Shown here: positions 3,363-36,754 of the stretch, one piece after another | Numbering within the stretch: position 1 is the stretch's first letter | Layout: each line of letters begins with the position of its first letter | NCBI RefSeq assembly: GCF_014874095.1 | Contig: NZ_JADBEB010000001.1 | Location: 124,001-188,000, forward strand | Direction of reading: 5' to 3' | DNA: 64,000 nucleotides | DNA from: Plantactinospora soyae | GTDB lineage: Bacteria > Actinomycetota > Actinomycetes > Mycobacteriales > Micromonosporaceae | Made by a program: the position numbers and the translations under genes | The notes under the pieces: model-generated | Databases searched by the model: none | Seen by the model: the letters and a program-made list of their open reading frames with translations, nothing else | What the model was told of the DNA's origin: nothing

Positions 3363-3380
3363 CTAGATCTTTACATCTAG
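3363..3380. promoter_or_regulatory. Inverted repeat CTAGAT-N6-ATCTAG sharing the GATCTTTAC core
   Basis: Perfect 6-bp arms around CTTTAC. It abuts the 17-bp IclR-type palindrome at 3380-3396. Together with 3308-3326 it forms a direct pair of GATCTTTAC-centred sites upstream of the atypical SDR gene. Confidence 0.45.
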
Positions 3381-3396
3381 TTCTGTATAACAGAAC
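3380..3396. promoter_or_regulatory. Putative IclR-family operator (perfect copy)
   Basis: GTTCTG-TATAA-CAGAAC, a perfect 6-5-6 palindrome, about 200 bp upstream of the start at 3180 and between the SDR stop at 3450 and the next unit. It is the most symmetrical member of the motif family found at 10871, 10901, 15313, 16123 and 36738. Assignment to the IclR protein at 15358-16131 is inferred from the copy over that gene's own start codon. Confidence 0.6.
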
Positions 3397-3449
3397 GATT
3401 GCGAGTGCTACTGCTCCCGATACCGCCCGCGAAGACGGATTGGGACGGA

Positions 3450-4415
3450 TCAGTGGAAGAAGGCTCCGCCGTCGACCACGACGGTCTGGCCGGTGATGAA
3501 GCTCGACATCGGACCGGCGAGGAACCGTACGGCCCCCACCACGTCCTGCGGGCGCTGTTCGCGGGCCAGCACCCGCTTGCCGGGGGCGGCACGCCGGAGC
3601 CCGGCCAGTTCCGCGCCGCCGTCGAGGATGCCGTCGCTCACCGTGAAACCCGGCGCCACGGCGTTGACCAGGATGTTGTCCTCGCCCAGCTCCCGGGCGC
3701 TGGCCCGGGTCATCGCGATCACCGCGCCCTTGCTGGCGACGTAGTGCAGCAGGTTCGCGACGCCCTTGAAGGCCGTCGTCGAGGCGATGTTCACGATCCG
3801 CCCGCCGCCGCGGTCCCGCATCGGTCCCACCACCGCCCGGATGCAGAGGTACGACCCGAGCACGTTGACGTCCATCACCCGCTGCCACTCGGCGACGTCG
3901 ATCTCTTCCAGCGGTCCCGGGCGGAGCGTGGTGAAGATGCCGGCGTTGTTGACCAGGATGTCGATCCCGCCGAACTCGCGGACCACCTCGCCGGCCAGTT
4001 CCCGGGTCGCTGCCTCGGACGAGACGTCCACCTCGATCCCGATCGCCGACATCCCGGCGGCGCGGAGTTCGTCGGCCGCACCCCCCGCGCCGGCCCGGTC
4101 GGCGACCACCACCCGGGCCCCCGCCCGACCGAGGTCCTCGGCGATGGCCCGGCCGATCCCGATCGCCCCACCGGTCACGATCGCCACCCGGCCGGTCAAC
4201 TCGGTCGAGCCGACCAGCCCCGACCCGACCGGAACGACACCGGTCGGCGGCCCGTCCCGGGAGGTCGGCGACTCATCGCGGAAGGTCGGCGACTCATCGC
4301 GGAAGGTCGGCGACTCATCGCGGAAGGTCGGCGACTCATCGCGGAAGGTCGGCGGCCCGTCGCCGGAGGTCGGCGGCCCGAAGCCGCCGACGGTCGGTCC
4401 GTCGCCGGAGGTCAT
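3450..4415 (-). CDS. Short-chain dehydrogenase/reductase with repeat-bearing N-terminal extension
   Basis: A classical SDR (321 residues from this start) expected to oxidise or reduce an alcohol/ketone with NAD(P). It has the TGGAIGIGRA cofactor loop, NNAG, a catalytic Ser in NIAST and an intact YVASK. The ATG at 4415 forms an ATGA overlap with the dehydrogenase stop at 4412, supporting coupling. The first 60 or so residues precede the Rossmann fold and contain four perfect copies of FRDESPT plus degenerate ones, encoded by a 21-bp tandem repeat. An internal GTG nearer to GSTELTGRVAIV is a plausible alternative start, in which case the repeat would be a spacer. It is the last gene of the hydroxylase-gentisate dioxygenase operon. 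Its substrate is unknown. Confidence 0.88.
   Translation of the reverse strand: MTSGDGPTVGGFGPPTSGDGPPTFRDESPTFRDESPTFRDESPTFRDESPTSRDGPPTGVVPVGSGLVGSTELTGRVAIVTGGAIGIGRAIAEDLGRAGARVVVADRAGAGGAADELRAAGMSAIGIEVDVSSEAATRELAGEVVREFGGIDILVNNAGIFTTLRPGPLEEIDVAEWQRVMDVNVLGSYLCIRAVVGPMRDRGGGRIVNIASTTAFKGVANLLHYVASKGAVIAMTRASARELGEDNILVNAVAPGFTVSDGILDGGAELAGLRRAAPGKRVLAREQRPQDVVGAVRFLAGPMSSFITGQTVVVDGGAFFH
4246..4412 (-). repeat. 21-bp minisatellite at the start of the SDR gene
   Basis: Unit GGTCGGCGACTCATCGCGGAA on the plus strand, four perfect tandem copies with degenerate copies on both sides. The unit length is a multiple of three and encodes FRDESPT on the minus strand. It begins immediately after the ATGA junction with the upstream dehydrogenase gene. 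Confidence 0.85.
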
Positions 4416-5908
4416 CGGTCCAGCCCGGCCAGGTTGAGGTACTTGATCTCCAGCCATTCGTCCAGGCCGTACTTCGAGCCCTCCCGGCCGATGCCGGACT
4501 GCTTGATCCCGCCGAACGGCGCCTGCTCGCCGGAGACCCGGCCCGTGTTGACCGCGATCATGCCCGTCTCGATCGCCTCGGCCGTCCGCCAGATCCGGCC
4601 CAGGTTGTGGCTGTAGAGATAGGCGACCAGGCCGTACTCGGAGTCGTTCGCCAGGGTGATCGCCTCGTCCTCGGTGGCGAAGCTCCGGATCGCCGCGACC
4701 GGGCCGAAGGTCTCCTCCCGCCAGGCCAGTGACTCCGTACTCAGCCCGGTGATCACGGTCGGCTCGAAGAAGGTGCCGCCCCGCTCGTCCGGCCGGCCGC
4801 CGGTGAGCACCTGCCCGCCGTGCTCGACCAGGTCCGCGACGTGCCGCTGCACCTTGCGCAGCCCCTGGTCGTCGATGAGCGGACCCATCTCCACGCCGTC
4901 GGTGAAGCCGGTACCGACCCGGACGGCCCTGGTCCGGCGCAGCAGCGCCTCGGTGAACCGTTCGAGGATCCCGTCCTGCACCAGAATCCGGTTCGCCGCC
5001 GTGCAGATCTGACCGGCGTTGCGGTACTTCGCCGAGAAGATTCCCTCGACCGCCAGCTCCGGGTCGGCGTCGTCGAAGACGATGAACGCGGCGTTGCCGC
5101 CGAGTTCCAGCGACACCTTCTTGATCCCGTCGGCGCACTGCCGCATCAGCAGCCGGCCGACCTCGGTCGATCCGGTGAAGCTGAGCTTGCGGACCACCGG
5201 GTTGTCGGTCAGCTCCCGACCGATCTCCGGCGCGTCCTCGGCGGCCCCGGTGACGATGTTCAGCACCCCGGGCGGCACCCCGGCCCGCAGGCCGAGTTCG
5301 GCCAGGGCCAGTGCGGTCAGCGGAGTCTGCTCGGCCGGCTTGAGCACCAGGGCGCAGCCGGCGGCCAGCGCCGGGGCCGCCTTCCGGGTGATCATCGCCG
5401 CCGGCAGGTTCCACGGGGTGATCCCGCCGACCACCCCGACCGACTGCTTCAACACGATGATCCGCTCCGCCGCCGAGTTGGACGGGATGACGTCGCCGTA
5501 GACCCGGCGCCCCTCCTCGGCGAACCAGTCGAGGAAGGCGGCGCTGTAGAGCACCTCGCCGCACGCCTCCGGGAACGGCTTGCCCTGCTCGGCGGTGAGG
5601 ATCGTCGCGATGTCGTCCACGTGGGACCGGATCAGGTCGGCCCAGCGGCGCAGGATCCCCGACCGGTCCACGGCGGTCCGGGCCCGCCAGCCCGGCAGGG
5701 CCAGCCGGGCCGCCTCGATCGCCCGGGCCGTCTCCGCCCGGCCGAGCCGGGGCACCTCGGCGAGCAGCTCGCCGGTGCCCGGATCGAGGACCGGGAACCG
5801 GGCGCCGCTGTCGGACCCGACCCACCCACCGTCGACGAACGCGTCGGTACGCAGCAGCGTCCGGTCCTGGATCCGGGAAGTGATCACGTCACCGATTGCA
5901 GTGGTCAA
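4412..5908 (-). CDS. NAD(P)-dependent aldehyde dehydrogenase, succinate-semialdehyde dehydrogenase type
   Basis: Oxidises an aldehyde to an acid; best resemblance is to the GabD/SSADH group (498 residues). Visible motifs are TPWNLPAAMITRK near residue 160, the catalytic Glu in LELGGNA, the catalytic Cys in NAGQICTAANR, and EETFGPVA plus PFGGIKQSGIGREG near the C-terminus. The start is the TTG at 5908, in a TTGA overlap with the upstream stop at 5905 and seven or so bases after a GGAGGAAG ribosome site. A semialdehyde substrate made from a ring-cleavage product is plausible but not shown by sequence. Confidence 0.92.
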   Translation of the reverse strand: MTTAIGDVITSRIQDRTLLRTDAFVDGGWVGSDSGARFPVLDPGTGELLAEVPRLGRAETARAIEAARLALPGWRARTAVDRSGILRRWADLIRSHVDDIATILTAEQGKPFPEACGEVLYSAAFLDWFAEEGRRVYGDVIPSNSAAERIIVLKQSVGVVGGITPWNLPAAMITRKAAPALAAGCALVLKPAEQTPLTALALAELGLRAGVPPGVLNIVTGAAEDAPEIGRELTDNPVVRKLSFTGSTEVGRLLMRQCADGIKKVSLELGGNAAFIVFDDADPELAVEGIFSAKYRNAGQICTAANRILVQDGILERFTEALLRRTRAVRVGTGFTDGVEMGPLIDDQGLRKVQRHVADLVEHGGQVLTGGRPDERGGTFFEPTVITGLSTESLAWREETFGPVAAIRSFATEDEAITLANDSEYGLVAYLYSHNLGRIWRTAEAIETGMIAVNTGRVSGEQAPFGGIKQSGIGREGSKYGLDEWLEIKYLNLAGLDR

Positions 5909-7404
5909 CTCGGTCTTCCTCCTGCCGGTCGGGCATCCGGGTGGTCCGGCGCCGGGGTACCGCGCAGCGGCGGTGGCGCGACGGCGGCAAGCCCCCGGGC
6001 CACCCCCGTCGAGCTGGTGTACCAGGCCAGTCCGAGTCCTTCGAGGATGCGTACGCAGGACTCGGCCGGATGGGTGTAGGTGTAGACGACCAGCGGCGGC
6101 AGATCCCGTTGGCGCAGCGCCGACAACGCCTCCCGGTCGTCCTCCAGCCGCCCGGCCGAGGCCAGCGAGGTGGCCAGGACGACCGCGTCGACCTCGCCGG
6201 AGGCGGCCAGCGCCTCGATCGCGGGCGCGAACGAACCACCGGCGATGAACTGGGCGGTGAGGTCGACCGGGTTCACCGGCGAGCCGTACTCGGGCATGAA
6301 GCCGGCAAGCGTGTGCTGCAACCCCGGCGACAGCTCCGGCACCGCGAGCCCGGCGTCCCGGCAGGCGTCGGCCAGCCACACCCCGGCCCCGCCGGACGTG
6401 GCCAGGATGCCGATCCGCCGCCCGGCCAGCGTCGGAACCTTGTCCAACGCCTGGAGTACGTCGATCAGCTCGCGCTCGTCGCCGGCCTGGGCGATCCCCG
6501 GCCGGGCGTAGAGCGCGTCCAGCCCGCCCAGCGTCGTCGCGTCGTGCCGGGTGTGCGCCAGGCTGCCCCGGGCACCCGCGTCGGTACGGCCCAGCCGGGC
6601 GACCAGCAGCCGCTTGCCGAGTTCCCGGGCCTGGTCGGCCAGGGCGGTGAGCCGGCCCGGATCGTCGACCCCCTCCAGCACCAGTACGGCGAGTTCGGTG
6701 TCGGTCTCGACCAGCAGCGCCCCGGCCAACTCCAGTACGTCGAGGTCGCCCTCGTTTCCGGTGCTGATCAGGTAGTTGAAGCCGATCCCCACCCGGGATC
6801 CCCACTGTGCCACCGCGAACCCGAGTCCGCCGCTGTGCGACAGCACCGCGACCTTGCCGGGGAGCACCACCTGGCCGGTCCGGGCCGCGTCGAGCACCGG
6901 GCTGAAGGTCAGCGGTGCCGACGCCGGCAGGCTGGCCAGGCCCTCGCAGTTCGGTCCGAGCACCCGCATGGTGGTACCGGCGACGATGCCGGTGATCTCG
7001 TCGCGGAGCTCGGCGCCCCGCCCGGTGCCCTCACCGAACCCGGAGCTGAGCACGATCGCCACCCGTACCCCGGCCGCGTCGCACTCGCGCAGCACCGCCG
7101 GCACCATCCGGGCCCGGACCATCACCATCGCCACCTCGACCGGCTCCGGCAGGTCCCGCACCGACGGGTACGCCGGTCGGCCCTGCACCGTGGCACGGGT
7201 CGGATTGACCGGGTAGACCCGGCCAGCGTACCCGGCCGCGGTGAGCAGTCCGAGCGGGCGACCGCCCAGGCTGACCGGGTTGTCCGAGGCGCCGATGATG
7301 GCCAGGCTCTCCGGGTGCAGCAGAACGTCCAGTTCGGAGCGTCCGGCCCCGGCCCGGACGATCGGCTCGCCGGATGCCCGGGGTACGGCGTCGAGGCTGG
7401 TCAT
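5905..7404 (-). CDS. CoA-binding, NDP-forming acyl-CoA ligase alpha-type protein
   Basis: About 500 residues with an N-terminal CoA_binding Rossmann domain (LAIIGASDNPVSLGG) followed by a succinyl-CoA-ligase-like domain (VLSHSGGLG, ISTGNEGDLDV) and a second flavodoxin-like domain (GILATSGGAGVW, SPVNPVDLTAQF). This is the alpha half of ADP-forming acetyl-CoA synthetase or feruloyl-CoA synthetase-like enzymes. The ATP-grasp beta part that normally transfers phosphate is absent here and not encoded next to it. The start at 7404 overlaps the upstream stop (ATGA). It could pair with a beta subunit elsewhere, or work as a CoA ligase/transferase for an aromatic or dicarboxylic acid made in this operon. 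Confidence 0.85.
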   Translation of the reverse strand: MTSLDAVPRASGEPIVRAGAGRSELDVLLHPESLAIIGASDNPVSLGGRPLGLLTAAGYAGRVYPVNPTRATVQGRPAYPSVRDLPEPVEVAMVMVRARMVPAVLRECDAAGVRVAIVLSSGFGEGTGRGAELRDEITGIVAGTTMRVLGPNCEGLASLPASAPLTFSPVLDAARTGQVVLPGKVAVLSHSGGLGFAVAQWGSRVGIGFNYLISTGNEGDLDVLELAGALLVETDTELAVLVLEGVDDPGRLTALADQARELGKRLLVARLGRTDAGARGSLAHTRHDATTLGGLDALYARPGIAQAGDERELIDVLQALDKVPTLAGRRIGILATSGGAGVWLADACRDAGLAVPELSPGLQHTLAGFMPEYGSPVNPVDLTAQFIAGGSFAPAIEALAASGEVDAVVLATSLASAGRLEDDREALSALRQRDLPPLVVYTYTHPAESCVRILEGLGLAWYTSSTGVARGLAAVAPPPLRGTPAPDHPDARPAGGRPS

Positions 7405-8288
7405 CGGGCCGGGTCCGATCCGGCGGTCACCGTGGTCCGGAGTACGCCGAGCCCGCTGATGCTCGCGGCCAGCACGTCGCCGGGGTGGATCGGTCCCACT
7501 CCCGGCGGTGCACCGGTGAAGATCAGATCGCCGGGGGACAGCGTCATCACCCGGGACGCGTGTTCGACGATGGCCGGTACGGCGACGATCATGTCGGCGG
7601 TGTTCACCCGCTGCCGCTGCTCGCCGTTGACCAGCAGCTCGATCTCGAAGCTGTCGTCCGGGCCGGCCTCGTCGGCGGTGGTCAGCCACGGCCCGAGCGG
7701 ACTGAAGGTGTCGTAGCTCTTGCGCCGCGACCGGTCCCCCGGGCTGCGTACGGTGATGTCGAGCCCGATGCCGTAACCGAGGATGTGCTCCCGGGCCCGC
7801 TCGGCGGGGATGTCCCGGCCGCCCTTGCCGATCACCACGACCAGTTCCGACTCGTGGTGCACCTCGTGCCCGGCGGCCAGTACGGCGGCCGGCAGCACGA
7901 TCGGTTCCCCGGGGCCGGCGAGCGAGGAGGGTGCCTTGAGGAAGACGTCGAAGGACATCATCCACTCCTCCACCTTGCCGAGGGTGCGTTCCTGCACCGC
8001 GTGCATCTCGTGCACGTGCTCGGCGTAGTTGCTGGCCGCCGCGATGATCTTTGACGGGTTCAGTGCGGGCGCCCGGAGCCGTACCCGGTCCAGCGGGACG
8101 ACCGGTCCCCGGGCGACGGCGTCGGCCAGCCGGTCGGCCAGCCCGGCGTAGTCGCGACAGAGCCGACGCCACGAGCCGGCCGTCTCCGGATCCGGATCGT
8201 GCGCCCAGGGCAGGCTGTCGGTCAGGTCGACGATCCCGCCGTCGACCACGGCTCCGATGCGGTAATCGTCGAAGAGGCAGAGCTTCAC
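7401..8288 (-). CDS. Fumarylacetoacetate hydrolase family protein (putative fumarylpyruvate/maleylpyruvate hydrolase)
   Basis: A 295-residue FAH-superfamily enzyme, directly after a gentisate dioxygenase-type gene, so hydrolysis of fumarylpyruvate (or maleylpyruvate) to pyruvate plus a C4 acid is the natural role. The metal-binding set is visible: HHESELVVVIGKGG supplies the Glu pair and GYGIGLDIT the Asp. The C-terminal PPGVGPIHPGD loop is typical. The start overlaps the dioxygenase stop by 4 bp. Other FAH-fold activities (acylpyruvase, decarboxylase or isomerase) cannot be excluded from sequence alone. Confidence 0.9.
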   Translation of the reverse strand: MKLCLFDDYRIGAVVDGGIVDLTDSLPWAHDPDPETAGSWRRLCRDYAGLADRLADAVARGPVVPLDRVRLRAPALNPSKIIAAASNYAEHVHEMHAVQERTLGKVEEWMMSFDVFLKAPSSLAGPGEPIVLPAAVLAAGHEVHHESELVVVIGKGGRDIPAERAREHILGYGIGLDITVRSPGDRSRRKSYDTFSPLGPWLTTADEAGPDDSFEIELLVNGEQRQRVNTADMIVAVPAIVEHASRVMTLSPGDLIFTGAPPGVGPIHPGDVLAASISGLGVLRTTVTAGSDPAR

Positions 8289-9457
8289 CGGGCCTCCCCA
8301 CGGGCGGCGGGAACCGGTGCCACGGCCGTACCCGGGGCCGGTACGGCGTCGAGGGTACGGGCGGTGAAGGTCCCGGTGACCGGCTGTTGGGCGTCGAGTA
8401 CGCGTTCCCGGTAGAGGCCCAGCGCCCGCAACACCGGGGCGTCGGTCAGCCGGAACAGGTCGGCCGGCGCGCTCGCCCGGTGCTCGACCGGTACCCAGGA
8501 CGGCACGACGAACATGTCACCGGGACTCCAGTCGAAGCGCTGGCCACCGATCACGCTGTAGCCCTCGCCCCGGAAGACCACCCAGATCGCGTTGCCGGTC
8601 TGCTGGCGGGGCCGGGTCACCCGGTCGACCGGCAGCCGGTGCACGCTGCAACTCAGCGTCGGCAGCACGCTCGCGCCGGAGTCCGGGTTGGTGAACTCGA
8701 CACTCGCGATCTCCGCGCCGTTCTCGGCCGCCAACCGGGCCAGCTCGGCGTCGGTCTCCGCCCAGCGGTAGACCAGCAGCCGCGACGGCTTCGGATCCAG
8801 TTCGTCGACGACCGCACCCGGCCGCAGCCGGCGCGGACTAGCGGCGTAGGCGGCCTCGACGACGTTGCGCCGGACCGGCTCGGGCTGGGCGAACTCGGGG
8901 TACTCCTCGAAGAAGACCGCGTCGAGCGCCTCGATCATCGGCAGGTCGAGTCCGTCGAACCAGACCATCGACTCCGTACCGCCGTTGGTGTGGTCGTGCC
9001 AGTGCATGCCCGGGGTCAGGATCAGGTCACCGGGATGCATGTCGCAGGCGTCGCCGTCGACCGTGGTCCACACCCCGCTGCCGGCCAGGACGAACCGGAT
9101 CGCGCCGGGCGAGTGCCGGTGCGCGGGTGCGGTCTCCCGGGGGCCGAGGCACTGGATCGCACCCCAGAGCGTGCCGACGGCGTACGGCCGGCCGCCGAGG
9201 CCGGGGTTGCCGAGGCTGAGCACCCGCCGCTCCCCGCCCCGGTCGACCGGAACCAGGTCGATCGCCCGCTCGGCCAGGGACCGGAGTACGGCACCGTTCC
9301 AGAGCCACGGCACCGCCTTCGGCCGTGGCGTCTCGGTCAGCAACTGGGCGGTGATGTTCCAGAGTGGATGCAGGTCGAGCGCGTCGAGATCACGGTAGAG
9401 ACCCGCCAACGCCTCGCCGGTGGCGTCGTCCACGCCAGCCGCCTTGTCAGAGATCAT
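8285..9457 (-). CDS. Gentisate 1,2-dioxygenase-type bicupin
   Basis: Opens the ring of gentisate (2,5-dihydroxybenzoate) to maleylpyruvate using Fe(II) and O2; salicylate or 1-hydroxy-2-naphthoate dioxygenases share the fold. The 390-residue protein has two cupin domains. The first carries the iron ligands in AHRHSPGAIRFVLAG (two His near residue 115) and a later His in the HWHDH segment. The second cupin (residues about 240-360) ends with WSPGDMFVVPSW. It is coupled to the upstream FAD hydroxylase by an ATGA overlap and to the FAH hydrolase downstream, giving the expected order for 3-hydroxybenzoate to gentisate to ring-opened acid. A mycothiol-dependent isomerase candidate lies at 29374. 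Confidence 0.92.
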   Translation of the reverse strand: MISDKAAGVDDATGEALAGLYRDLDALDLHPLWNITAQLLTETPRPKAVPWLWNGAVLRSLAERAIDLVPVDRGGERRVLSLGNPGLGGRPYAVGTLWGAIQCLGPRETAPAHRHSPGAIRFVLAGSGVWTTVDGDACDMHPGDLILTPGMHWHDHTNGGTESMVWFDGLDLPMIEALDAVFFEEYPEFAQPEPVRRNVVEAAYAASPRRLRPGAVVDELDPKPSRLLVYRWAETDAELARLAAENGAEIASVEFTNPDSGASVLPTLSCSVHRLPVDRVTRPRQQTGNAIWVVFRGEGYSVIGGQRFDWSPGDMFVVPSWVPVEHRASAPADLFRLTDAPVLRALGLYRERVLDAQQPVTGTFTARTLDAVPAPGTAVAPVPAARGEAR

Positions 9458-10860
9458 GATGGACCCTCGTCCTCTTCCCCAGGGGTTTCCGGAACAGCGC
9501 CCGGTCGGTGTGCACGGTGTGCGTCATACGGCGCGCTCGCCGGACCCGACCGGCCGCTCGCCGCCACGTCCGGACCGGACTGACCGCTCGCCGCCACGTT
9601 CGGACCGGACCGACCGCTCGCCGTCACGTCCGGAACGCGGGCGATGCCGAACCGCCGTACGCTCTCCAGCAGTGACGCCCGCCGGACCCAGGCGTGGTGC
9701 CGGACCGGATCGGCGGCGATGGCGCGCAGCTCGTCCTGGTTCGCCCGGCGCCGCTCCGGGTCGGTCTCCTTGAGCCGCTCGGTGTTGCGGTGCGTGTCCG
9801 CCTGTACGTAGTCCAGCGCGACCCGCCGGCGCACCGCGTCGAACGCGGCGAGTTCCGGCTCCGCGTCCGCGCCGGCCCTGATCCGCACCAGCCGGCGTAC
9901 CACGTCCATCGCGTCGTGGATGCCACTGTTCAGTCCGACCCCGCCGACCGGGCTGTTGATGTGCGCCGCGTCCCCGACGACGACCACGTTGCCGAGCCGG
10001 AACGTCGACGCCACCCGCTGGTGCACGTTGTAGATCTGCCGGTCGACGATCGGGTAGCCCTCGGCGCGGGGCGCGATCCCCTGCAACTGCGCCTGAAGGG
10101 TGTCCGGATCGAGCGCCACCTCACGGGGCTGGTCCGGCGGCACCGGGTAGACGGCCCGCCAGGACTCCCTGGTGTGCAGCAGGAACAGCCACTCCCGGGG
10201 GTCCGCCACGTAGTTGACGTCGGCCAGGCCGGGGATCATCTCCCGCAGGTCGACCGAGGTGCTCACGATGAGGAAGCGCTCAGGGTAGGTGTGCCCCTCG
10301 AACCCGATGTCGAGGGACTGCCGGACGGTGCTGTTAGCGCCGTCCGCGCCGATCAGGTGTGAGCCGTGGATCTCGGTCTCGCCCGACTGGGTCCGTACCG
10401 TGACCGAGACCCCGCCGTCGGTCTCGCGTACGCCGGTCACCCGGGCGCCGAAGACCTCGCGGGCGAGGTCGCTGCCGCGCAGCCGTTCGACCAGCATCCG
10501 GACCAGGTGCTGCTGGTTGAGCTGCAACCGGTACGGGTGGGCGGTCTCGTCGCGCAGCAGACCGAAGTCGAACTCGGCGACCAGCCCCGCGTCCCGGTCC
10601 CGATGCTGGAAGCGCGGTACGACCAGCCCTTCGGCGATCATCCGGTCGACGATTCCGAGCTCGTCGAGGAGTTCGAGGGTCGGCGGATGGAAGGTCGACG
10701 CCCGCCAGTCGGTCTTCGGCTCGGACTCGGCCTCGATCAGCACGACCGGCACACCGTGGCGGACCAGTTCCGCGGCCGCGGTCACCCCGACCGGGCCGGC
10801 CCCGACGACGAGCACCGGAGCGGTGGCGGCGGTCGGAATCGTTCTGGACATGCTTGTCAT
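9454..10860 (-). CDS. FAD-dependent aromatic hydroxylase
   Basis: A single-component flavoprotein monooxygenase (about 468 residues) of the PHBH/MhpA class, expected to hydroxylate a phenolic acid using NAD(P)H. It has the GAGPVGVTAAAELVRHG dinucleotide motif near the N-terminus, the DG motif (LIGADGANSTVRQ) and the FAD-phosphate motif GDAAHINSPVGGVGLNSG. Being the first gene of the gentisate operon makes 3-hydroxybenzoate 6-hydroxylase a reasonable guess. The ATG at 10860 is used here; ATG 10851 is possible. The C-terminal 60 residues contain three copies of a ten-residue V(A/T)ASG(R/Q)SGP(D/N) repeat not needed for catalysis. Two IclR-type palindromes lie 11-57 bp upstream. Confidence 0.9.
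   Translation of the reverse strand: MTSMSRTIPTAATAPVLVVGAGPVGVTAAAELVRHGVPVVLIEAESEPKTDWRASTFHPPTLELLDELGIVDRMIAEGLVVPRFQHRDRDAGLVAEFDFGLLRDETAHPYRLQLNQQHLVRMLVERLRGSDLAREVFGARVTGVRETDGGVSVTVRTQSGETEIHGSHLIGADGANSTVRQSLDIGFEGHTYPERFLIVSTSVDLREMIPGLADVNYVADPREWLFLLHTRESWRAVYPVPPDQPREVALDPDTLQAQLQGIAPRAEGYPIVDRQIYNVHQRVASTFRLGNVVVVGDAAHINSPVGGVGLNSGIHDAMDVVRRLVRIRAGADAEPELAAFDAVRRRVALDYVQADTHRNTERLKETDPERRRANQDELRAIAADPVRHHAWVRRASLLESVRRFGIARVPDVTASGRSGPNVAASGQSGPDVAASGRSGPASAPYDAHRAHRPGAVPETPGEEDEGPS
9543..9632 (-). repeat. 30-bp minisatellite in the 3' end of the hydroxylase gene
   Basis: Three near-perfect units containing CCGCTCGCCGCCACGTCCGG. In frame they encode V(A/T)ASG(R/Q)SGP(D/N) on the minus strand, near the stop. 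Confidence 0.75.
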
Positions 10861-10870
10861 CGTAGCCACG

Positions 10871-10887
10871 ATTCCAATAACCGGAAG
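10871..10887. promoter_or_regulatory. Putative IclR-family operator, proximal copy
   Basis: ATTCCA-ATAAC-CGGAAG, immediately upstream of the hydroxylase start at 10860. A second copy begins exactly 30 bp further upstream. Confidence 0.55.
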
Positions 10888-10900
10888 AGATGGACGGGCA

Positions 10901-10917
10901 ATTCTGCAACCTGGAAC
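10901..10917. promoter_or_regulatory. Putative IclR-family operator, distal copy
   Basis: ATTCTG-CAACC-TGGAAC, 30 bp from the proximal copy, so both lie on the same helix face. A similar 31-bp pairing is seen upstream of the transporter operon (36707 and 36738). Confidence 0.55.
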
Positions 10918-14107: not shown

Positions 14108-14138
14108 CGGGTGCTCCTTCCCTGCGTCCCGCCGCCGG

Positions 14139-15140: not shown

Positions 15141-15312
15141 GGTGCCTCTCCCGGGACTGGTGGTGACCGCGGCGGAGCTGGCGGTCGCGGCGCGGGCCGC
15201 TGGCGCCGTGGCCGGGTGCGGGCCCGGCCACGGCGACGTCGACCACGAGTGCGACCACGCAGTGCTCACACGCTAGCCCCGTGCATCGCCCTAGGGAATA
15301 GGAGGCACAGTT

Positions 15313-15329
15313 ATTCTGATGTACGGAAT
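15313..15329. promoter_or_regulatory. Putative IclR-family operator upstream of the ligJ-like unit
   Basis: ATTCTG-ATGTA-CGGAAT, one mismatch from perfect symmetry. It sits in the 217-bp space between the IclR stop and the ligJ-like start. Confidence 0.55.
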
Positions 15330-29242: not shown

Positions 29243-29373
29243 CGAGCACCGCGCATTCCGGGGTCCCACCCGGACATCGGCGCCGGTGACTCCGGGCCGA
29301 GTTTTGGAGAGCAGAAGAGAGACCTACCGGAGTGGCGTCCACGAGAATTCCTAACATATCCGGGGCGGTGGTG

Positions 29374-29922: not shown

Positions 29923-29933
29923 TCCGCACGCTC

Positions 29934-31508
29934 CTAACAGGTCAGTCGGGCACTTCTGAACTGGGCACCGACGGCCGCGAAGTCGACGTCGGCCAGGCAC
30001 TTGGACTGGAAGGTGTAGTTCGGCCCGCTGATGATCGGGATGTCGACCCCGAGGTCGTTCATCGTCGACCAGACCTTGCGCCAGGTCGTCTGCCGTACCG
30101 CCGCGTCGAGGGTCTGGTTGGCCGACTGGATCAGCTCCGGCACCTCCGGGTGCTCCCGGGCGAACCCGTGCTTGCCCTGCGGCGTGGACGGGGACTGGAA
30201 CGAGGTGTAGAACTGCGGGTCGTTGATGCCGCCGCTGAAGGCGTACGCCATCTGGTAGGTGCCGTCCGAGTACGCCTCGCTGAGCTGCGGCCCCTGCACC
30301 GCCTTGACCTGTGCCCTGATCCCGCACTGCTGCCACTGCTGGGCCAGCGCGTTCGAGATCACCTGCGAGTGGCCACCGATGTTGAGCAGGCTGAACTCCA
30401 GCCCACCGAGCTGGTCCACCAGCGCCTTGCCCTTGGCCGGATCGAACGGGTACGGGAACTGCGCCTTCGCCCCGTCCACCCCGCCGTCGGGGTAGTACAG
30501 GCTGTCCGCACCGGCCAGTACGTACGCCGGGGTGACCCAGCCACGCTGCACGTTCTTGGCGATCGAGTCCCGGTCGGTGCAGTAGTTGATCGCCTGCCGT
30601 GCCTCCGGCCGGTTGAACGGCGGCTTGTACGTGTTGATCGGCAGGAAGGCGTAGAGGGTGTTCTCCCCGGCGATGGTGGCGATCTCCTGGTTGGCCTTCG
30701 CGTCGTCCAGCACGTTCGGCGGGGTGGAGACGCCACTGACCTGCACACTGTCGATCGAGCCGGAGGCGACGTGCTGGTAGGAGACCTGCGCCTCGGGGCT
30801 GGTGTTGATGTACTTGACCTCGGCCAGGTGGACGTTGCTCCGGTCCCAGTACTTCTCGAACGGCTTGAGGACCAGTTCCTCGCCCGGCTTGTGGCTGACG
30901 ATCTCGAACGGCCCGGCACCGACCGGCTTCAGCCCGAACTGCTGCTGGCCGATCTTCTTGTGCGCGGTGGGCGAGCCGATCAGCGTCGCCGGGGTGTACG
31001 TCAGGAAGGCGATCATGGTCGCGGTCGGCTCGCTGAACGTCATCGTGACCTGGTGCTCGCCGCTGGCCGTGACCGACGACATCTGCTTGAAGTACTGGGC
31101 GTTCGGCGACTCCGCGCTCTTGTAGCGCTCGAAGTTGTAGACCACCGCCTCGGCGTCGAACGGCGTACCGTCGGAGAAGGTCACGCCCTGGCGCAGGTCG
31201 ATCGTGAGCGTCTTGAGGTCGTCGCCGTACTTGTAGCCGGTGGCCAGGTCCGGGACGAAGTCGCCGTCCTTGGACTCCGGCGGGTCGAAGAGCGAGCCGT
31301 AGATGTCCAGCGAGATCGGCACGGACTTGCTGATGTAGCCGGTGCCGCCCGGGTCGAGGGTCTTGTAGTTGTACCCACCGACGGTGATCTTGCCGTCCGC
31401 GCCGCCGTTGCCGGTGGCGCCGTTGCCACCGGACCCGCCGCAGGCGGCCAGGGCGAGCCCGACGCTCGCGACCAGGGCCAGCCGGAGGAGTACGTTTCGT
31501 CGTCTCAT
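29934..31508 (-). CDS. ABC transporter substrate-binding lipoprotein (family 5)
   Basis: A 524-residue exported binding protein for one or both transporter sets around it. The N-terminus MRRRNVLLRLALVASVGLALAACGG is a lipoprotein signal; a Gly/Asn-rich linker follows, then the SBP_bac_5 domain with RQGVTFSDGTPFDAEAV and KPVGAGPFEIVSHKPGE. The start overlaps the DsbA-like gene stop (ATGA). It is the only complete binding protein in the window, although two permease/ATPase sets flank it. Confidence 0.94.
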   Translation of the reverse strand: MRRRNVLLRLALVASVGLALAACGGSGGNGATGNGGADGKITVGGYNYKTLDPGGTGYISKSVPISLDIYGSLFDPPESKDGDFVPDLATGYKYGDDLKTLTIDLRQGVTFSDGTPFDAEAVVYNFERYKSAESPNAQYFKQMSSVTASGEHQVTMTFSEPTATMIAFLTYTPATLIGSPTAHKKIGQQQFGLKPVGAGPFEIVSHKPGEELVLKPFEKYWDRSNVHLAEVKYINTSPEAQVSYQHVASGSIDSVQVSGVSTPPNVLDDAKANQEIATIAGENTLYAFLPINTYKPPFNRPEARQAINYCTDRDSIAKNVQRGWVTPAYVLAGADSLYYPDGGVDGAKAQFPYPFDPAKGKALVDQLGGLEFSLLNIGGHSQVISNALAQQWQQCGIRAQVKAVQGPQLSEAYSDGTYQMAYAFSGGINDPQFYTSFQSPSTPQGKHGFAREHPEVPELIQSANQTLDAAVRQTTWRKVWSTMNDLGVDIPIISGPNYTFQSKCLADVDFAAVGAQFRSARLTC

Positions 31509-32266
31509 CCCTGCACTCCGTTCTTCCCCGTCGACGCCACTACCGGTTGATCTGGAGCCGCCGCCGGCTGATCCGTTTCGGCCTCCGGCTCGGGGGCGGC
31601 CCAGGGCCGTTGACCCCAGGGCCACCACGGCGTACGGGCACCGTCGTCGTGGAAGATCGCCGGCAGTGTCGGGGCGCCGAGCCGGCCCCGCTTGAGTTCG
31701 GAGAAGCTGTCGTACCGGACCAGCCAGGAGACGTGCCGCCAGAGTTCGACCGCGTCCTCGTCGCTGGGCATCCGGTTCAGCACCGGGCCGAAGATCATCG
31801 GACCGTCGCCGCCGTCGAGCGCGATGGTGGGTACGCCGATGCTCCGGGCCCGGCCGATCAGTCCCTGGTGGTCGGCGACGACCTCGGCCCAGGTTCCCGG
31901 ATCGGCCATCGCCTCGTCGAACAGCACCTCGTCGAAGCCGGCCTCGACCACCGACTCCCGGACCGCCACCACCAGGTCCGGGGCGGGCGGCCGGGATTCC
32001 CAGGTACGCCGGGACAACGCCCGGTAGAACGCCCCGATCGCCGTGGAGCCCGCCTTACGCCGGATCGCCACCGCACAGCGCAGCGCCGGTCCGGAGATCG
32101 CCTCCAGTTCGAGCGGGTCGGCGCCCTCCGGAAGGTTGAGGATCTCCAGGCAGAAGAGTCCCCAGTCGAGTTCGACCTCGCCGAGTTCCGCCAGTCGCCA
32201 GGCCCACTTGGTGGTCAGGTAGCACCACGGGCACCGGGGGTCGAAATAGATCTTTATGGCTTCCAC
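31505..32266 (-). CDS. DsbA-fold (Rv2466c-like) oxidoreductase with intact CPWC
   Basis: A 253-residue paralogue of the 24400-25161 protein. The active site reads YFDPRCPWCYLTTKW, with both Cys present, as in the mycothiol-dependent nitroreductase Rv2466c. WGLFCLEILNL, GVPTIALDGGDGPMIFGPVL and FSELKRGR match the sister protein. The last 40 residues are a Pro/Glu/Ala tail with PWWPWGQRPW. The GTG start at 32266 overlaps the ATPase stop (TAGTG) and its stop overlaps the binding-protein ATG, so it is translationally locked into the transporter operon. Confidence 0.87.
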   Translation of the reverse strand: MEAIKIYFDPRCPWCYLTTKWAWRLAELGEVELDWGLFCLEILNLPEGADPLELEAISGPALRCAVAIRRKAGSTAIGAFYRALSRRTWESRPPAPDLVVAVRESVVEAGFDEVLFDEAMADPGTWAEVVADHQGLIGRARSIGVPTIALDGGDGPMIFGPVLNRMPSDEDAVELWRHVSWLVRYDSFSELKRGRLGAPTLPAIFHDDGARTPWWPWGQRPWAAPEPEAETDQPAAAPDQPVVASTGKNGVQG

Positions 32267-33372
32267 TACAGATCACCCTTGTTTTCCGGCAACGGTTCGG
32301 TCAGCGGCATCGATTCGGGACGTGGGGACGGACGGGCGGGAACGGGTACGTCGACGGCCCGGGTACCGCCGAGCGGAAAGTGGCAGGCGACCCGGTGACC
32401 GGGCGCGATCTCCCGCAGCTCGGGCACCCGGTCGGCACAGGTCTGCTGGGCGTAGACACAGCGGGTGCGGAACCGGCAGCCGGACGGCGGGCGCAGTGGG
32501 GAGGGCTGTTCGCCGACCACCGGGATCCGTTCCCGGACCGTCTCGGTGTGCAGGTCCGGCGGAATCGCCGAGAGCAGCGCCGCCGTGTACGGGTGGGCCG
32601 GGCTGGCGAACAACTCGTCCGTCGGGGCCGTCTCGCAGAGCCGCCCGAGATACATGATCCCGGTCCGGTCCGCGAGGGTACGCACCACCGCGAGGTCGTG
32701 GGCGATCAACAGGCAGGTCAGCGACAACCGGTTCTTCAGCTCGAAGAGCAGCCCCAGCACCTGGGCCTGGATCGAGACGTCGAGCGCGGTGACCGGCTCG
32801 TCCAGGATGACCAGGTCCGGTCGGGACACCAGGGCGCGGGCGATGGCCACCCGCTGGGCCTGACCGCCGGAGAGTTCCCGGGGCCGCCGGCCACCGAAGC
32901 GGCTGGCGTTCAGGCCGACCAGGTGCAGGATCTCGGCCACCCGGCGGCGCCGGTCCACGCTCGACCGCACCCCGGCGGTGATCAGCGGCTCCGCCACACT
33001 TCGCTCGACCGTCCACCGTGGATCGAGTGCCGAGAACGGGTCCTGGAACACCATCTGTACGCCACCGCCGGTGCCCCGCCGTCCGGTGCCGCGCATCCGC
33101 CGCCCGCCCACGGTACGGCCGCTCACCGTCACCCGCCCGCTGACCGGTCCCGGCGCCCCGATGACCGTACGGGCCAGCGTGGACTTGCCGGATCCGGTCT
33201 CGCCGACCAGGGCGAACGTCTCGCCCCGGGCGATCGTGAAGCTGACTCCGGCGACCGCCGACACCGTCGACCGCTGGAACGGCCGCCGCCCCTTGACCTT
33301 GAACTCCTGGACCACGTCGACGCAGTCCAGCACCGGCGCCGGCACCGGCTCGGATCCCGACCCGGTCGTCAT
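32266..33372 (-). CDS. ABC transporter ATPase, OppF/DppF type (first set)
   Basis: A 368-residue nucleotide-binding subunit. Walker A is GETGSGKST, signature LSGGQAQRV, Walker B LVILDEPVTALD, switch His in IAHDLAVV, C-terminal GCRFRTRCVYAQQTC. A Gly/Arg-rich insertion precedes the Q-loop (MRGTGRRGTGGG). The ATG at 33372 overlaps the OppD-type stop. Confidence 0.95.
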   Translation of the reverse strand: MTTGSGSEPVPAPVLDCVDVVQEFKVKGRRPFQRSTVSAVAGVSFTIARGETFALVGETGSGKSTLARTVIGAPGPVSGRVTVSGRTVGGRRMRGTGRRGTGGGVQMVFQDPFSALDPRWTVERSVAEPLITAGVRSSVDRRRRVAEILHLVGLNASRFGGRRPRELSGGQAQRVAIARALVSRPDLVILDEPVTALDVSIQAQVLGLLFELKNRLSLTCLLIAHDLAVVRTLADRTGIMYLGRLCETAPTDELFASPAHPYTAALLSAIPPDLHTETVRERIPVVGEQPSPLRPPSGCRFRTRCVYAQQTCADRVPELREIAPGHRVACHFPLGGTRAVDVPVPARPSPRPESMPLTEPLPENKGDL

Positions 33373-34568
33373 GGGGCCACCTCCGCTACCGGCGTCGTCG
33401 ACGACGACTGTGAGGACGTCGACGACTGCGAGGACGTCAACGACTGTGGGGACGTTGACGGCTGTGCGGAGGTCGACGGCTGTGCGGAGGTCGACGGCTG
33501 CGGGGGCGTCGATCGGGGGTGCCAGCAGCGGACGAGGTGTCGATCGGTCACCTCGACCAGGGCCGGCCGGTCCTGTCCGCAGTCGTCCTCGGCGTGCTCG
33601 CACCGGGCCGCGAAGGCGCATCCGGGTGGCGGGTCGCGCGGATCCGGTGGCGATCCCTCGATCGGTCGGGGCGGCCGGCCGGGAAGTCCGACATCCGGTA
33701 CCGCCCGGATCAGCGCCTGGGTGTACGGCATCCGGGAGGTCCGGGCAATGCCTCGGGCCGGCAACGCCTCGACCACCTGCCCGCCGTACATCACCAGCAC
33801 CTGTTCGGCCCGGGAGGCGGCCAGCGCCAGATCATGGGTGACCACGATGTTGCTGATCGAGTGGGCCTCGCGCAGCCCGTCCAGCAGGTCCATGATGGCC
33901 GCCTGGGTGGTCACGTCCAGCGACGACGTGGGCTCGTCACAGAAGATCACCTTCGGCCGGCAGGCCAGCGCTATCGCGATCACGATCCGCTGCCGCATTC
34001 CGCCGGAGAGTTCGTGCGGATAGGCGAAGTACCGCTCGTCCGGCGCGGCGATCCCGACATCGCGGATCAGTTCGACGCTGCGCCGACGCGCCTCCGCCCG
34101 GCCGAGTGGCGCCTCGCCGGACGCCTGGTCGGGCCGCCCCGAGCCGGCGAGCATCGCCTCGGCGATCTGCGGCCCGACCCGCATCGTCGGGTTCAGCGAC
34201 CGGGTCGGATCCTGGAACACCAGCGAGGCGACACCGCTGACGAAGTGACGGCGCTTCGCCCTCGGCAGCTGCGCCACGTCGACGCCGTCGAAGCGTACGG
34301 TGCCGGTGACCTCGAACCGGCGCGGATCCAGCAGCCCCAGTACGGCCCGGATGCCGATCGACTTGCCCGCGCCGGACTCGCCGACGATCGCCATCGCCCG
34401 CGCGGGTGCCACCCGGTAGGACAACCCCTCCACCAGGGTCAACATGGCCGAGCCCCGCCGCACCCGTACGGTGAGGTCCTCGACCTCGACCACCGGAGTG
34501 GTCCCGGGTGCGGTGGATGCCGGCGGCCCAGTGGGCCGGTCGGCCTGGGTGGGTCCGGAACGGGTCAT
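33369..34568 (-). CDS. ABC transporter ATPase, OppD/DppD type (first set), with Ser/Thr/Gln repeat tail
   Basis: A 399-residue nucleotide-binding subunit. Walker A is GESGAGKSI (Ile rather than Thr after Ser), signature LSGGMRQRI, Walker B VIFCDEPTSSLD, switch His in VTHDLALA, and GCAFAARCEHAEDDC near the end. The last 45 residues are a Ser/Thr/Gln/Pro repeat (QPSTSA units) encoded by an 18-bp tandem repeat; no relative I know has this tail. Its start overlaps the permease stop by one base. Confidence 0.93.
   Translation of the reverse strand: MTRSGPTQADRPTGPPASTAPGTTPVVEVEDLTVRVRRGSAMLTLVEGLSYRVAPARAMAIVGESGAGKSIGIRAVLGLLDPRRFEVTGTVRFDGVDVAQLPRAKRRHFVSGVASLVFQDPTRSLNPTMRVGPQIAEAMLAGSGRPDQASGEAPLGRAEARRRSVELIRDVGIAAPDERYFAYPHELSGGMRQRIVIAIALACRPKVIFCDEPTSSLDVTTQAAIMDLLDGLREAHSISNIVVTHDLALAASRAEQVLVMYGGQVVEALPARGIARTSRMPYTQALIRAVPDVGLPGRPPRPIEGSPPDPRDPPPGCAFAARCEHAEDDCGQDRPALVEVTDRHLVRCWHPRSTPPQPSTSAQPSTSAQPSTSPQSLTSSQSSTSSQSSSTTPVAEVAP
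33404..33505 (-). repeat. 18-bp minisatellite at the 3' end of the OppD-type gene
   Basis: Unit GTCGACGGCTGTGCGGAG on the plus strand, two to three close copies followed by decayed ones with GACGTC. In frame it encodes the QPSTSA repeat tail of the ATPase. Confidence 0.75.
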
Positions 34569-35506
34569 CAGCGCTCCTCGGTCAGCCGACCGCGGAGTCC
34601 GTCCGCGACCAGGTTCAGGGACAGGACGGTGACGAACAGCGCCATGCTGGGCAGGACGACCAGTCGGGGATCGCTGCTGAGGTACGCGTCCCCGGTGGCG
34701 ATCAGGTTGCCCCAGGTCGGCTCGGGCTCCGGTACGCCGAGTCCGAGATAACTCAACCCGGCCTCGATCATCATCGCGGTGCCGATGGTGAAGAGCGCGA
34801 AGCCCAGCAGCGGCGGCAGGACGTTCGGCAGGATGTGGCCGAAGATCACCCGGTACGCGGCGGCGCCGTCGCTGCGGGGTGCGGTGACGAAGTCCCGGTG
34901 CCGGACGGTCAGGGTCTGCGACCAGGCCAGCCGACCGAACCGGGAGACCCCGAAGAGGCTGATCGCCAGCGTGGTGTTGGTGAGGCTGGGACCGAGGTAG
35001 TCGGCGATCACCAGGGCGAGGATCAGGCCGGGGAAGGCCAGCAGCGTGTCGAAGAGCCGCATCACGAACGTCTCGTAGAGGCCGCCGAAGAAGCCGGCCG
35101 TCACCCCCAGCAGGGCGCCCGCGAGCAGACTGATCGCGGTGGCACCGAGCCCGACGATGATCGACACCCGGCCGCCGTGCAGCAGCCGGGACAGCACGTC
35201 GTTGCCGAGTTCGTTCGTGCCGAGCGGATGACCGGGTGAGCCCATCGGGGCCATCGCGTTGGCCAGGTCACCGGTGACCGGGGACGGCAGCGACAGCAGG
35301 GCCGGCCCGGCGAAGCAGGCCAGCACCACGACGACGAAGACCGCGGCCGGGATGCCCACCGACGGCGCCCGCAGCGCGCGGCCGAGTTGGGCGAGCCGGG
35401 CGAGGTGGCGGTCCCGGCCGGGAGCGGAGATCCACGCCTCGTCGGCGTCGGAGACCGCGATCGGCGCGGGGTCCGACACGTCCCTTCGCTGTACGTCGGT
35501 ACTCAT
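34568..35506 (-). CDS. ABC transporter permease, OppC/DppC type (first set)
   Basis: A 312-residue inner-membrane permease with about six helices. Family marks are GTNELGNDVLSRLLHGGRVSIIVG, the EAA region near AAAYRVIFGHILPNVLPP, and MIEAGLSYLGLGVPEPEPTWG. A polar leader of about 45 residues precedes the first helix. It lies 82 bp downstream of the OppB-type gene. Confidence 0.95.
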   Translation of the reverse strand: MSTDVQRRDVSDPAPIAVSDADEAWISAPGRDRHLARLAQLGRALRAPSVGIPAAVFVVVVLACFAGPALLSLPSPVTGDLANAMAPMGSPGHPLGTNELGNDVLSRLLHGGRVSIIVGLGATAISLLAGALLGVTAGFFGGLYETFVMRLFDTLLAFPGLILALVIADYLGPSLTNTTLAISLFGVSRFGRLAWSQTLTVRHRDFVTAPRSDGAAAYRVIFGHILPNVLPPLLGFALFTIGTAMMIEAGLSYLGLGVPEPEPTWGNLIATGDAYLSSDPRLVVLPSMALFVTVLSLNLVADGLRGRLTEER

Positions 35507-35588
35507 TGCGATCGCCTCTCCCTCGTCTGTCCCGCCGTGCCGCCGCCCGACCCGGTCACCAGCCCCGGGCCGGTACCCCGGAGCCGGT

Positions 35589-36557
35589 TCATCCGGCCCG
35601 GACCCGGCGACGCGCGCCCGGCCGTACCCGTGGATCGAGTCGCATCTGGATCAGTTCGCCGACCAGGTTCGCGACCACCACGCCCACCGCGATCAGCACG
35701 ATCGCGCCCTGAAGAAGGGTCGCGTCGCGGTTGTTGATGGCGCCGAGCACCAGGCGGCCGATCCCCGGGATCGAGAAGACCTCCTCGACGATCACCACGC
35801 CGGAGAGCAGGAACCCGGTGGTGAGCGCGATCAGCGTGATCAGCCCGCCGACCGAGTTCCGAGCCACGTGCAGGACCAGGATCCTGGGTTTGGACAGGCC
35901 CTTCATCCGGGCGAGGGTGACGTACTCCTCGCTCTCCAACTGCTCGTAGATCTCGCTGCGCAGCACCCGCATGTACTCGGGGAAGACCGACACCCCGAGC
36001 GCGACCGACGGGATGATCATCGCCTTGATGTTGGCGCCCCAGCCCTCGGTGGCGGGGTCCACCCAGCCGATCGAGGAGACCATCCGGAGGCCGGTCGCGA
36101 AGACCACGATCAGCATCAGCGCCACCACGAACGCCGGTACCGAGTTGCCGATCAGCCCGAGTACGGTGACGAACCGGTCCGCCCAGCGGAACCGCAGCGA
36201 GAGCACGGTGGTCAGCAGCGCCAGGGTGATGCCGACGATCTGTGCGCCGACGAGCAGTTCGACGGTCGGCGGCAGCGCCAGCCGGATCGCCTCGCTGACG
36301 CTCTGGTGGGTGATCACCGAGGTGCCGAAGTCGCCCCGTACGGCGGCGCCGAGCCAGTCCAGGTAACGGACGTAGAGCGGATCGTCCAGCCGCAACTGGG
36401 CGGTCAGTTCGGCGGCCGCCTCGGGGGTGTAGAAGTCACCGAGGATGGCGTAGACGACGTTGCCCTGCAGGATGTTGACGAGCCCGAATCCGAGCGCCGT
36501 CACGCAGAGAACGACGACCAGCATCTGGAGCAGCCGGGCACCGATCACCCGGAGCAT
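35589..36557 (-). CDS. ABC transporter permease, OppB/DppB type (first set)
   Basis: A 322-residue inner-membrane permease and the first gene of the long transporter run. It begins directly with helix 1 (MLRVIGARLLQMLVVVLCVTALGF) and has the EAA loop YVTLARMKGLSKPRILVLHVARNS and VFSIPGIGRLVLGAI near the C-terminus. Upstream, two IclR-type palindromes about 31 bp apart (36707 and 36738) probably mark the operon promoter. Confidence 0.95.
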   Translation of the reverse strand: MLRVIGARLLQMLVVVLCVTALGFGLVNILQGNVVYAILGDFYTPEAAAELTAQLRLDDPLYVRYLDWLGAAVRGDFGTSVITHQSVSEAIRLALPPTVELLVGAQIVGITLALLTTVLSLRFRWADRFVTVLGLIGNSVPAFVVALMLIVVFATGLRMVSSIGWVDPATEGWGANIKAMIIPSVALGVSVFPEYMRVLRSEIYEQLESEEYVTLARMKGLSKPRILVLHVARNSVGGLITLIALTTGFLLSGVVIVEEVFSIPGIGRLVLGAINNRDATLLQGAIVLIAVGVVVANLVGELIQMRLDPRVRPGARRRVRAG

Positions 36558-36706
36558 CGCGGTGTTCCTTCGTGGGATCGACGACGCCGGCTGATCATCC
36601 TGGACTCCCTTGCCCTCTGGGGTCGTCGCGTGCGTGCCCGACCCGTCCGGATCGGCTGGGACGCCAGGTGGGACCGGCTCGCCGCTTAGCCGGACGCTAC
36701 AATTCG

Positions 36707-36723
36707 GTTCCGCTCATAGCAAC
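36707..36723. promoter_or_regulatory. Degenerate IclR-type palindrome upstream of the transporter operon
   Basis: GTTCCG-CTCAT-AGCAAC; one half matches the motif fully, the other at four of six positions. Its 31-bp offset from the better copy resembles the 30-bp pairing at 10871/10901. Confidence 0.4.
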
Positions 36724-36737
36724 GCCCCCCTCTGTTG

Positions 36738-36754
36738 GTTCTGCTATGCGGAAC
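36738..36754. promoter_or_regulatory. Putative IclR-family operator upstream of the transporter operon
   Basis: GTTCTG-CTATG-CGGAAC, one mismatch from perfect symmetry, 181 bp before the first permease start. It links the transporters to the same regulator as the catabolic units. Confidence 0.55.

Follow-up and report, generated by a model that had tools for sequence, protein, structure and literature searches.

Can one short palindrome, repeated in front of several catabolic and transport operons, mark a single regulon, and does the IclR-family gene lying among these operons encode the protein that reads it? This question is raised by a 64,000-nucleotide stretch of Plantactinospora soyae DNA (the window; positions 124,001-188,000 of the 9.7-Mb single-contig genome). 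A sequence-only reading had linked four units and the iclR gene through the pattern RTTCYR-N5-YGGAAY and had named the IclR protein as the binder. The palindromes are real, are located where that reading had placed them and occur far above chance. Three findings support the proposal of a common regulon that joins transporters and degradation genes: the footprints recur in two other species, the -10 box stands at a constant distance, and a second genus shows the same layout.

The six places listed for RTTCYR-N5-YGGAAY were only half exact: the sites at 10901, 15313 and 36738 match fully, and those at 3380, 10871 and 16123 carry one mismatch each. A fourth exact match, missing from the list, was found at 36905-36921 on the minus strand. 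When palindromic places were tallied on both strands, the window held 4 exact matches, compared with a mean of 0.15 (maximum 2) in window shuffles, and 17 matches with at most one mismatch, compared with a shuffle mean of 2.98 (maximum 10). An improved symmetric consensus, RTTCY-N7-RGAAY, is matched exactly at 3380, 10901, 15313, 16123, 36738 and 36905, and the site at 10871 departs from it at the last letter only. This consensus has 64 copies in the genome (24 for the reversed control), and the window contains 6 where 0.42 are expected (Poisson probability 5e-6). Similarly, the narrower palindrome RTTCYR-N5-YRGAAY is present 16 times in the genome and 5 times in the window, 36905 included, where 0.11 are expected. 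None of the six exact RTTCY-N7-RGAAY sites falls within coding DNA, except for the one at the iclR start, as had been claimed for the placement of the motif.

The nearest named relatives of the window IclR protein are found in Plantactinospora mayteni and P. endophytica (96% identity each), followed by P. alkalitolerans (92%). The first two were compared with the window genome as cluster-bearing species, and five intergenic regions were aligned. This comparison of upstream regions, proposed earlier as a check, showed that the footprints of the strong sites recur: the sites at 3380, 10871, 10901, 15313, 16123 and 36738 are kept in both relatives. Over the five strong sites in three species, 48 of 50 arm columns are invariant versus 22 of 35 spacer columns, and the two varying arm columns remain within R or Y. 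The weaker copy reported at 36707 is indeed a weak site, of which only one half is conserved in the relatives. The site at 16123 is conserved in four Plantactinospora genomes and centred on the iclR start codon; P. alkalitolerans retains iclR together with this site.

The promoters of the regulated units share a common layout. In each of the four units named by the sequence-only reading (SDR, gentisate, LigJ-like and transporter), the centre of the strong site is 47.5-49.5 bp upstream of a TANNNT -10 box, which corresponds to about -58. TANNNT was found on the gene strand at this distance in all 12 promoter sequences (4 operons in 3 species), and only one further TANNNT was present on the gene strand in all scanned stretches. 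When the iclR site is read toward the divergent P450 gene, TAAGTT is found at 48.5 bp (TAGGTT in P. mayteni and P. endophytica), and the site at 16123 therefore appears to serve a fifth promoter, that of the P450 operon; the count of four units was too low. In P. alkalitolerans no hexamer stands at that distance from the iclR site, and no P450 relative was found on the contig. In the spacing test, 7 of 7 promoters fell into one 3-bp bin versus at most 4 in 10,000 shuffles; the seven were the five conserved window sites and both exact sites of G048, a genome from another genus of the same family, chosen regardless of spacing (36905 was omitted as unconserved), and they are not fully independent, as two G048 promoters are related to two window promoters. 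This version replaced a nine-promoter test (9 of 9 versus at most 4 in 6,000 shuffles) because two members of the latter had been picked for their spacing.

A second, weaker element lies closer to the gene. In most promoters a weaker site or half-site is placed 30 or 31 bp nearer the gene, roughly at the -35 position. When the half-site score was scanned in nine promoters at 83 offsets (17-99 bp), the peak was at 30 bp, where the mean best half scored 4.0 of 5 versus 2.2 overall; proximal half-sites were poorest at the G048 transporter and the SDR unit. Across 11 promoters, the best -35 match has a mean of 2.8 of 6 letters versus 2.3 by chance, with the highest matches at the P450 and transporter promoters. 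The hexamer and the start codon are 7 nt apart both at the window FAD monooxygenase and at its G048 relative, and 6 nt apart at its P. alkalitolerans relative; the iclR start codon also follows its hexamer by 6 nt. Because these start codons trail the hexamers by 6-7 nt, the -10 box calls gain independent support. The same gap fits leaderless messages for iclR and the gentisate operon. Leaderless messages are common in actinobacteria. With the A of the ATG as +1, the two gentisate-operon sites have their centres 58 and 28 bp upstream, and the centre of the iclR site falls on the ATG itself. Two-mismatch sites of the window, 2 of 106 of which have the spacing, were otherwise not used as evidence. 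A half-site of two-mismatch quality at 16181, upstream of iclR and beside the P450 -10 box, stands at the right distance from the iclR -10 box in four genomes.

How specific are these signals in the whole genome? Of the 64 genomic RTTCY-N7-RGAAY sites, the analysis covered 6 in the window and 45 outside, 51 in all. With a rough codon-usage caller that over-calls non-coding DNA, the 45 outside sites were assigned as 16 coding, 3 doubtful and 26 non-coding. The density check suggested earlier, motif frequency in genes versus promoters, thus bites in part: the palindrome letters are insufficient alone because at least 16 of the 45 outside sites fall in coding DNA, and the palindrome by itself was rejected as proof of regulation. 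The letters combined with the -10 spacing do discriminate (5 of 6 exact window sites versus 1 of 45 examined outside). A hexamer at 44-53 bp on either side picks 6 of the 51 sites, the five in the window and one at 2207870, and each of them fronts catabolic or transport genes, which makes the spacing rule a sharper search tool than the palindrome. The extra exact match at 36905-36921 was rejected as a regulon member; it is absent from P. mayteni and P. endophytica, has no -10 box at the right distance and is probably non-functional.

The single outside hit is found 2.07 Mb from the window and precedes a benzoylformate-decarboxylase-like gene. An aldehyde dehydrogenase gene runs the opposite way, and both genes score below curated cut-offs. 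A second strong site (2207894) adjoins the first. The pair occupies the same place in P. mayteni and P. endophytica, with changes in spacers and R/Y positions, and the second P. mayteni site is unchanged. TACTGT is found at 48.5 bp from the remote site in all three cluster-bearing species. The paired sites are 24-26 bp apart and not 30, and an ATTCC half-site is also present 30 bp nearer the gene. Decarboxylase relatives in P. mayteni and P. endophytica show 79% identity; P. alkalitolerans has a 51% partial match with no site, and in four other genomes searched no decarboxylase was found at 1e-100. From its site, conservation and spacing, this 2.21-Mb locus very likely belongs to the regulon, as a further unit beyond those first counted.

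The second genus was compared in the same way. In G048, both exact sites have a hexamer at 48.5 bp. Of 8 one-mismatch sites, 2 also have one (at 48.5 or 49.5 bp), and these lose weight as they were selected for having the spacing. The G048 sites with spacing are found at an amidohydrolase operon, an ABC (ATP-binding cassette) transporter, a monooxygenase and a gentisate-dioxygenase operon. The site at the last of these has the ATG of a divergent IclR gene at its centre, which repeats the arrangement seen in the window. The G048 transporter under the like promoter is of a different type (ATPase, fused permease and binding protein, read from open frames only), so the pairing of uptake and degradation seems to be kept while the transporter is swapped. 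In P. alkalitolerans, a second gentisate operon is accompanied by a divergent IclR gene of its own (49% identical). The gentisate/monooxygenase promoter there has CTTCC-type sites 30 bp apart and a -10 box at 48.5 bp, and again the site has the iclR start codon at its centre.

The view that the local IclR protein is the binder, put forward earlier from the start-codon site, is strengthened by three observations: the start-codon-centred site in four genomes, a motif known for the IclR family, and a shared recognition helix. By eye, the window palindromes have the operator shape of IclR group 1 (odd-length inverted repeat, GTT/WTT-11-AAC/AAW). The recognition helix VARSTAHRLLAML is identical in 12 of 13 residues to that of the G048 IclR located among the G048 sites, and in at most 8 of 13 to those of the 11 other IclR matches of the same genome.

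Based on these data, the window IclR probably represses itself and activates the catabolic and transport promoters with an aromatic inducer. In such a circuit, IclR dimers would bind RTTCY-N7-RGAAY. A dimer on the iclR site would shut iclR down; autorepression is expected because this site has the start codon at its centre and reaches into the -10 box. At the five catabolic and transport promoters, and at the remote sixth, the strong site, some 58 bp before the transcription start, would hold one dimer, and the weaker site 30-31 bp nearer, where a -35 element would be, would hold another. The inducer may be an aromatic acid or a ring-cleavage intermediate, and the inducer-bound pair of dimers would recruit RNA polymerase to promoters that mostly have no good -35. 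The sequence itself shows the sites, how they are conserved, their constant spacing and the gene content; the identity of the binder, the mode of activation, the inducer and the inclusion of the remote unit are inferred.

Several observations weigh against this circuit or its extent. The narrow palindrome is found 16, 16 and 22 times in the genomes of the cluster-bearing species and 8, 9, 8 and 9 times in four Plantactinospora without the cluster; subtraction of the cluster and remote sites leaves 10, 11 and 18, so co-occurrence is supported only in part and the P. endophytica excess is unexplained by the regulon. With 18 sites still outside its cluster, genome-wide site counts were weakened as proof of co-occurrence. 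The operons were not found on the P. alkalitolerans iclR contig that was searched. Within 1.5 kb of nine IclR relatives from organisms of other families (43-50% identical), neither an exact site nor a one-mismatch site with the spacing was found, and the same two kinds of site are lacking at a G054 relative (47%). Among eight more distant IclR relatives compared, four share 12 of 13 helix residues, with Ser replacing Arg44, and have no such site nearby. Arg44 is position 28 by the equivalences of Table 5 in PMC8222616, where this position is predicted to contact a G in this motif class.

The same regulon and binder could also be explained with IclR as a repressor throughout, whose dimers at -58 and -28 block polymerase until an aromatic inducer frees them. 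The proximal site covers the -35 region, which equally fits a repressor, two promoters (P450 and transporter) have fair -35 boxes (TTGCCA and TTGCTA), and the iclR site over -10/+1 is in a repressive position. Many IclR proteins are repressors. However, at each promoter the distal site, at about -58, is the stronger of the two, which would be unusual for simple repression, and most promoters have no -35. Repression throughout is regarded as unlikely, and the activator mode is preferred. For IclR proteins of this kind, the choice between activator and repressor becomes directly testable.

It is quite improbable that the sites belong to one or more other IclR paralogues, the window gene being only one among the users of a common motif. 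In the genome, two other IclR genes (1572658 and 4627808) adjoin GTTCCG-N5-CGGAAC sites at 1572528 and 4627773, which makes cross-binding possible; group 1 motifs are common to many IclR groups, as described in PMC8222616; and none of the 12 IclR matches in the genome is within 270 kb of the remote unit. However, the sites at those two genes have no -10 spacing, the recognition helices of the two paralogues are identical to that of the window protein in only 4 and 7 of 13 residues, and the window gene bears its own site in all four Plantactinospora genomes where it was found. As a separate observation, RTTCY-N7-RGAAY occurs three times beside these two genes, at 1572528, 1573403 and 4627773; two of the three read GTTCCG-N5-CGGAAC and none shows the -10 spacing. 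That the motif is a chance or compositional echo with coincidental spacing, as its discovery by eye in the window and the like letters inside genes elsewhere might suggest, has practically no likelihood in view of the genome-wide density, the cross-species footprints and the spacing tests, and is contradicted by conservation in the second genus.

A wider proposal concerns the two-dimer grammar, with a strong site at -58, a weak site at -28, 30-31 bp between them, little need for a -35 and a site centred on the divergent iclR start. We tentatively suggest, with confidence falling slightly short of even, that this is a general activation mode of the IclR branch, kept despite changes of target genes, transporter family, regulator copy and half-site letters, as at the P. 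alkalitolerans monooxygenase promoter with its CTTCC-type sites.

The regulon is well supported as a new example of a familiar circuit type with an unusually regular promoter layout. In Escherichia coli, an aromatic pathway is activated by MhpR, an IclR-type protein whose site lies near -58. A second site at -28 is not known for MhpR. Its motif, GGTGCACCTGGTGCACA, is different (PMC8222616). IclR group 1 motifs of this shape are described in PMC8222616 with aromatic regulons and co-occurring Dpp-type transporters, and the likeness to the window lies in the 17-letter odd-length palindrome and in targets that include aromatic catabolism and Dpp-type transporters. At arm positions 4-5, the published group 1 consensus reads YC, and the window sites read CY. 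In PMC8222616 the two members of a pair of sites are most often separated by 18-22 bp, and three-turn distances are less marked, whereas the window promoters repeatedly show 30-31 bp. Site positions are also described there as peaking between -3 and +1 when counted from the start codon, as at iclR here. GenR of Corynebacterium glutamicum (3-hydroxybenzoate/gentisate) is alike in family, in gentisate targets and in site shape, ATTCC-N7(5)-GGAAT (PMC8222616). The arms agree when R/Y is allowed at positions 1 and 5; none of the 6 exact window sites carries both ATTCC and GGAAT. The window arms are RTTCY/RGAAY, often RTTCTG. The window targets also add the LigB/RraA pathway, the P450 system, the transporters and the remote decarboxylase pair. 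PcaR, PcaU and PobR, likewise of the IclR family, control genes for aromatic ring cleavage; PcaU binds at three boxes and has a different motif, TTTGTTCGATWATCGMACAMA (PMC8222616). The window IclR scores 155.2 bits with the PcaR/PcaU/PobR model TIGR02431 (cut-off 284.75) and 174 bits with the BhcR model NF045644 (cut-off 350). A search of the IclR literature for Plantactinospora and of the gentisate-regulon literature for Micromonosporaceae found no account of this regulon.

The coordinates of the sites, promoters and genes are collected in Table 1. The gentisate dioxygenase-like protein is so named because it reaches 269.9 bits with TIGR02272 (cut-off 442.1), and all 6 PDB matches at 1e-10 are named gentisate or putative gentisate dioxygenase. 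The LigJ-like amidohydrolase matches Pfam Amidohydro_2 only, with no NCBIfam match at 0.001. The aldolase at 11000-11677 is above one LigK-type cut-off (189.4 versus 179) and below the other (176.1 versus 304.5). The FAD monooxygenase passes no NCBIfam cut-off among the matches listed; its best PDB matches are PnpA and HspB. A second gentisate-dioxygenase relative in the same genome (8456916) has no exact site and none with the spacing, and an amidohydrolase relative in G091 has no exact site within 1.5 kb. As judged from the gene content, the regulon would serve the uptake and funnelling of aromatic acids, presumably hydroxylated or methoxylated, and the remote pair would convert aryl-glyoxylates to aryl acids. 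Under the wider proposal above, a single protein of this kind would unite the P450 system, both ABC transporters, two routes of ring cleavage and a decarboxylase 2 Mb away. From the DNA sites alone, some 25-30 genes of a genus that has received little study fall into one candidate response, and the remote decarboxylase/dehydrogenase pair and the P450 system are linked to the same pathway.

Table 1 Sites, -10 boxes and genes of the candidate regulon in the window.
Feature	Coordinates	Strand	Details
IclR-family regulator, candidate binder	15358..16131	-	Pfam HTH_IclR and IclR_C, both above gathering score; recognition helix VARSTAHRLLAML
Strong site ATTCTTCATAGCGGAAT	16123..16139		Centred on A of iclR ATG (16131); overlaps iclR -10; about -58 for P450 operon
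iclR -10 box TATCAT	16138..16143	-	6 nt before ATG
Weak proximal half-site, P450 promoter (TTGCCACTGTGCAGATC)	16153..16169	+	
P450 operon -10 box TAAGTT	16177..16182	+	48.5 bp from site centre
Cytochrome P450, first gene of fifth unit	16317..17525	+	NCBIfam matches, none above cut-off; PDB relatives
Ferredoxin-like open reading frame	17525..17722	+	Read from open frame alone
Ferredoxin reductase	17800..19005	+	Start approximate; NCBIfam HcaD/AndAa-type, below curated cut-offs
Strong distal site ATTCTGATGTACGGAAT, amidohydrolase/LigB/RraA operon	15313..15329		
Weak proximal half-site, amidohydrolase/LigB/RraA operon	15283..15299		30 bp nearer gene
-10 box TAGCGT, amidohydrolase/LigB/RraA operon	15270..15275	-	
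Amidohydrolase (LigJ-like), LigB extradiol dioxygenase and three RraA-type aldolases, operon	11000..15140	-	Pfam/NCBIfam; middle RraA protein assigned only via similarity to neighbours' relatives
Strong distal site ATTCTGCAACCTGGAAC, gentisate operon	10901..10917		Centre 58 bp before ATG
Proximal site ATTCCAATAACCGGAAG, gentisate operon	10871..10887		Centre 28 bp before ATG, over -35 region
-10 box TACGAT, gentisate operon	10859..10864	-	7 nt before ATG
Gentisate operon: FAD monooxygenase, gentisate dioxygenase-like, FAH hydrolase, acyl-CoA synthetase-like, aldehyde dehydrogenase, SDR	3450..10851	-	
Strong distal site GTTCTGTATAACAGAAC, SDR/enoyl-CoA hydratase/binding-protein unit	3380..3396		
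Weak proximal half-site, SDR unit	3350..3366		
-10 box TAATGT, SDR unit	3337..3342	-	
SDR, enoyl-CoA hydratase family protein and probable ABC binding protein	1..3180	-	Runs off window; binding protein named from sequence reading, relatives present in P. mayteni and P. endophytica
Strong distal site GTTCTGCTATGCGGAAC, transporter operon	36738..36754		
Weak proximal site GTTCCGCTCATAGCAAC, transporter operon	36707..36723		31 bp nearer gene, half-site conserved
-10 box TAGCGT, transporter operon	36694..36699	-	
Two co-directional oligopeptide-type ABC transporters	25179..36557	-	Six genes: Pfam BPD_transp_1, ABC_tran, oligo_HPY, SBP_bac_5; three genes (32266-35506) placed solely by tblastn to relatives
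Extra exact match	36905..36921	-	

Some other features were found beside these units. At 3362-3379, an inverted repeat, CTAGAT-N6-ATCTAG, abuts the site of the SDR unit; its outer arms CTAGA/TCTAG are kept in P. mayteni and P. endophytica, and it could be a candidate site for another factor. Between the gentisate promoter and the aldolase gene, a strong hairpin repeat with AAGGAAGGGCCCCTTCTT is present at 10938-10992, with no counterpart in P. mayteni or P. endophytica. This 18-mer is a member of a dispersed repeat family, as 84 genome copies were counted (36 forward, 48 reverse) versus 0 for the reversed control. An open frame at 20496-21461 combines a MerR-type helix-turn-helix with an AhpC-TSA/redoxin domain. 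The true start of one open frame in the window is probably internal, near 4212.

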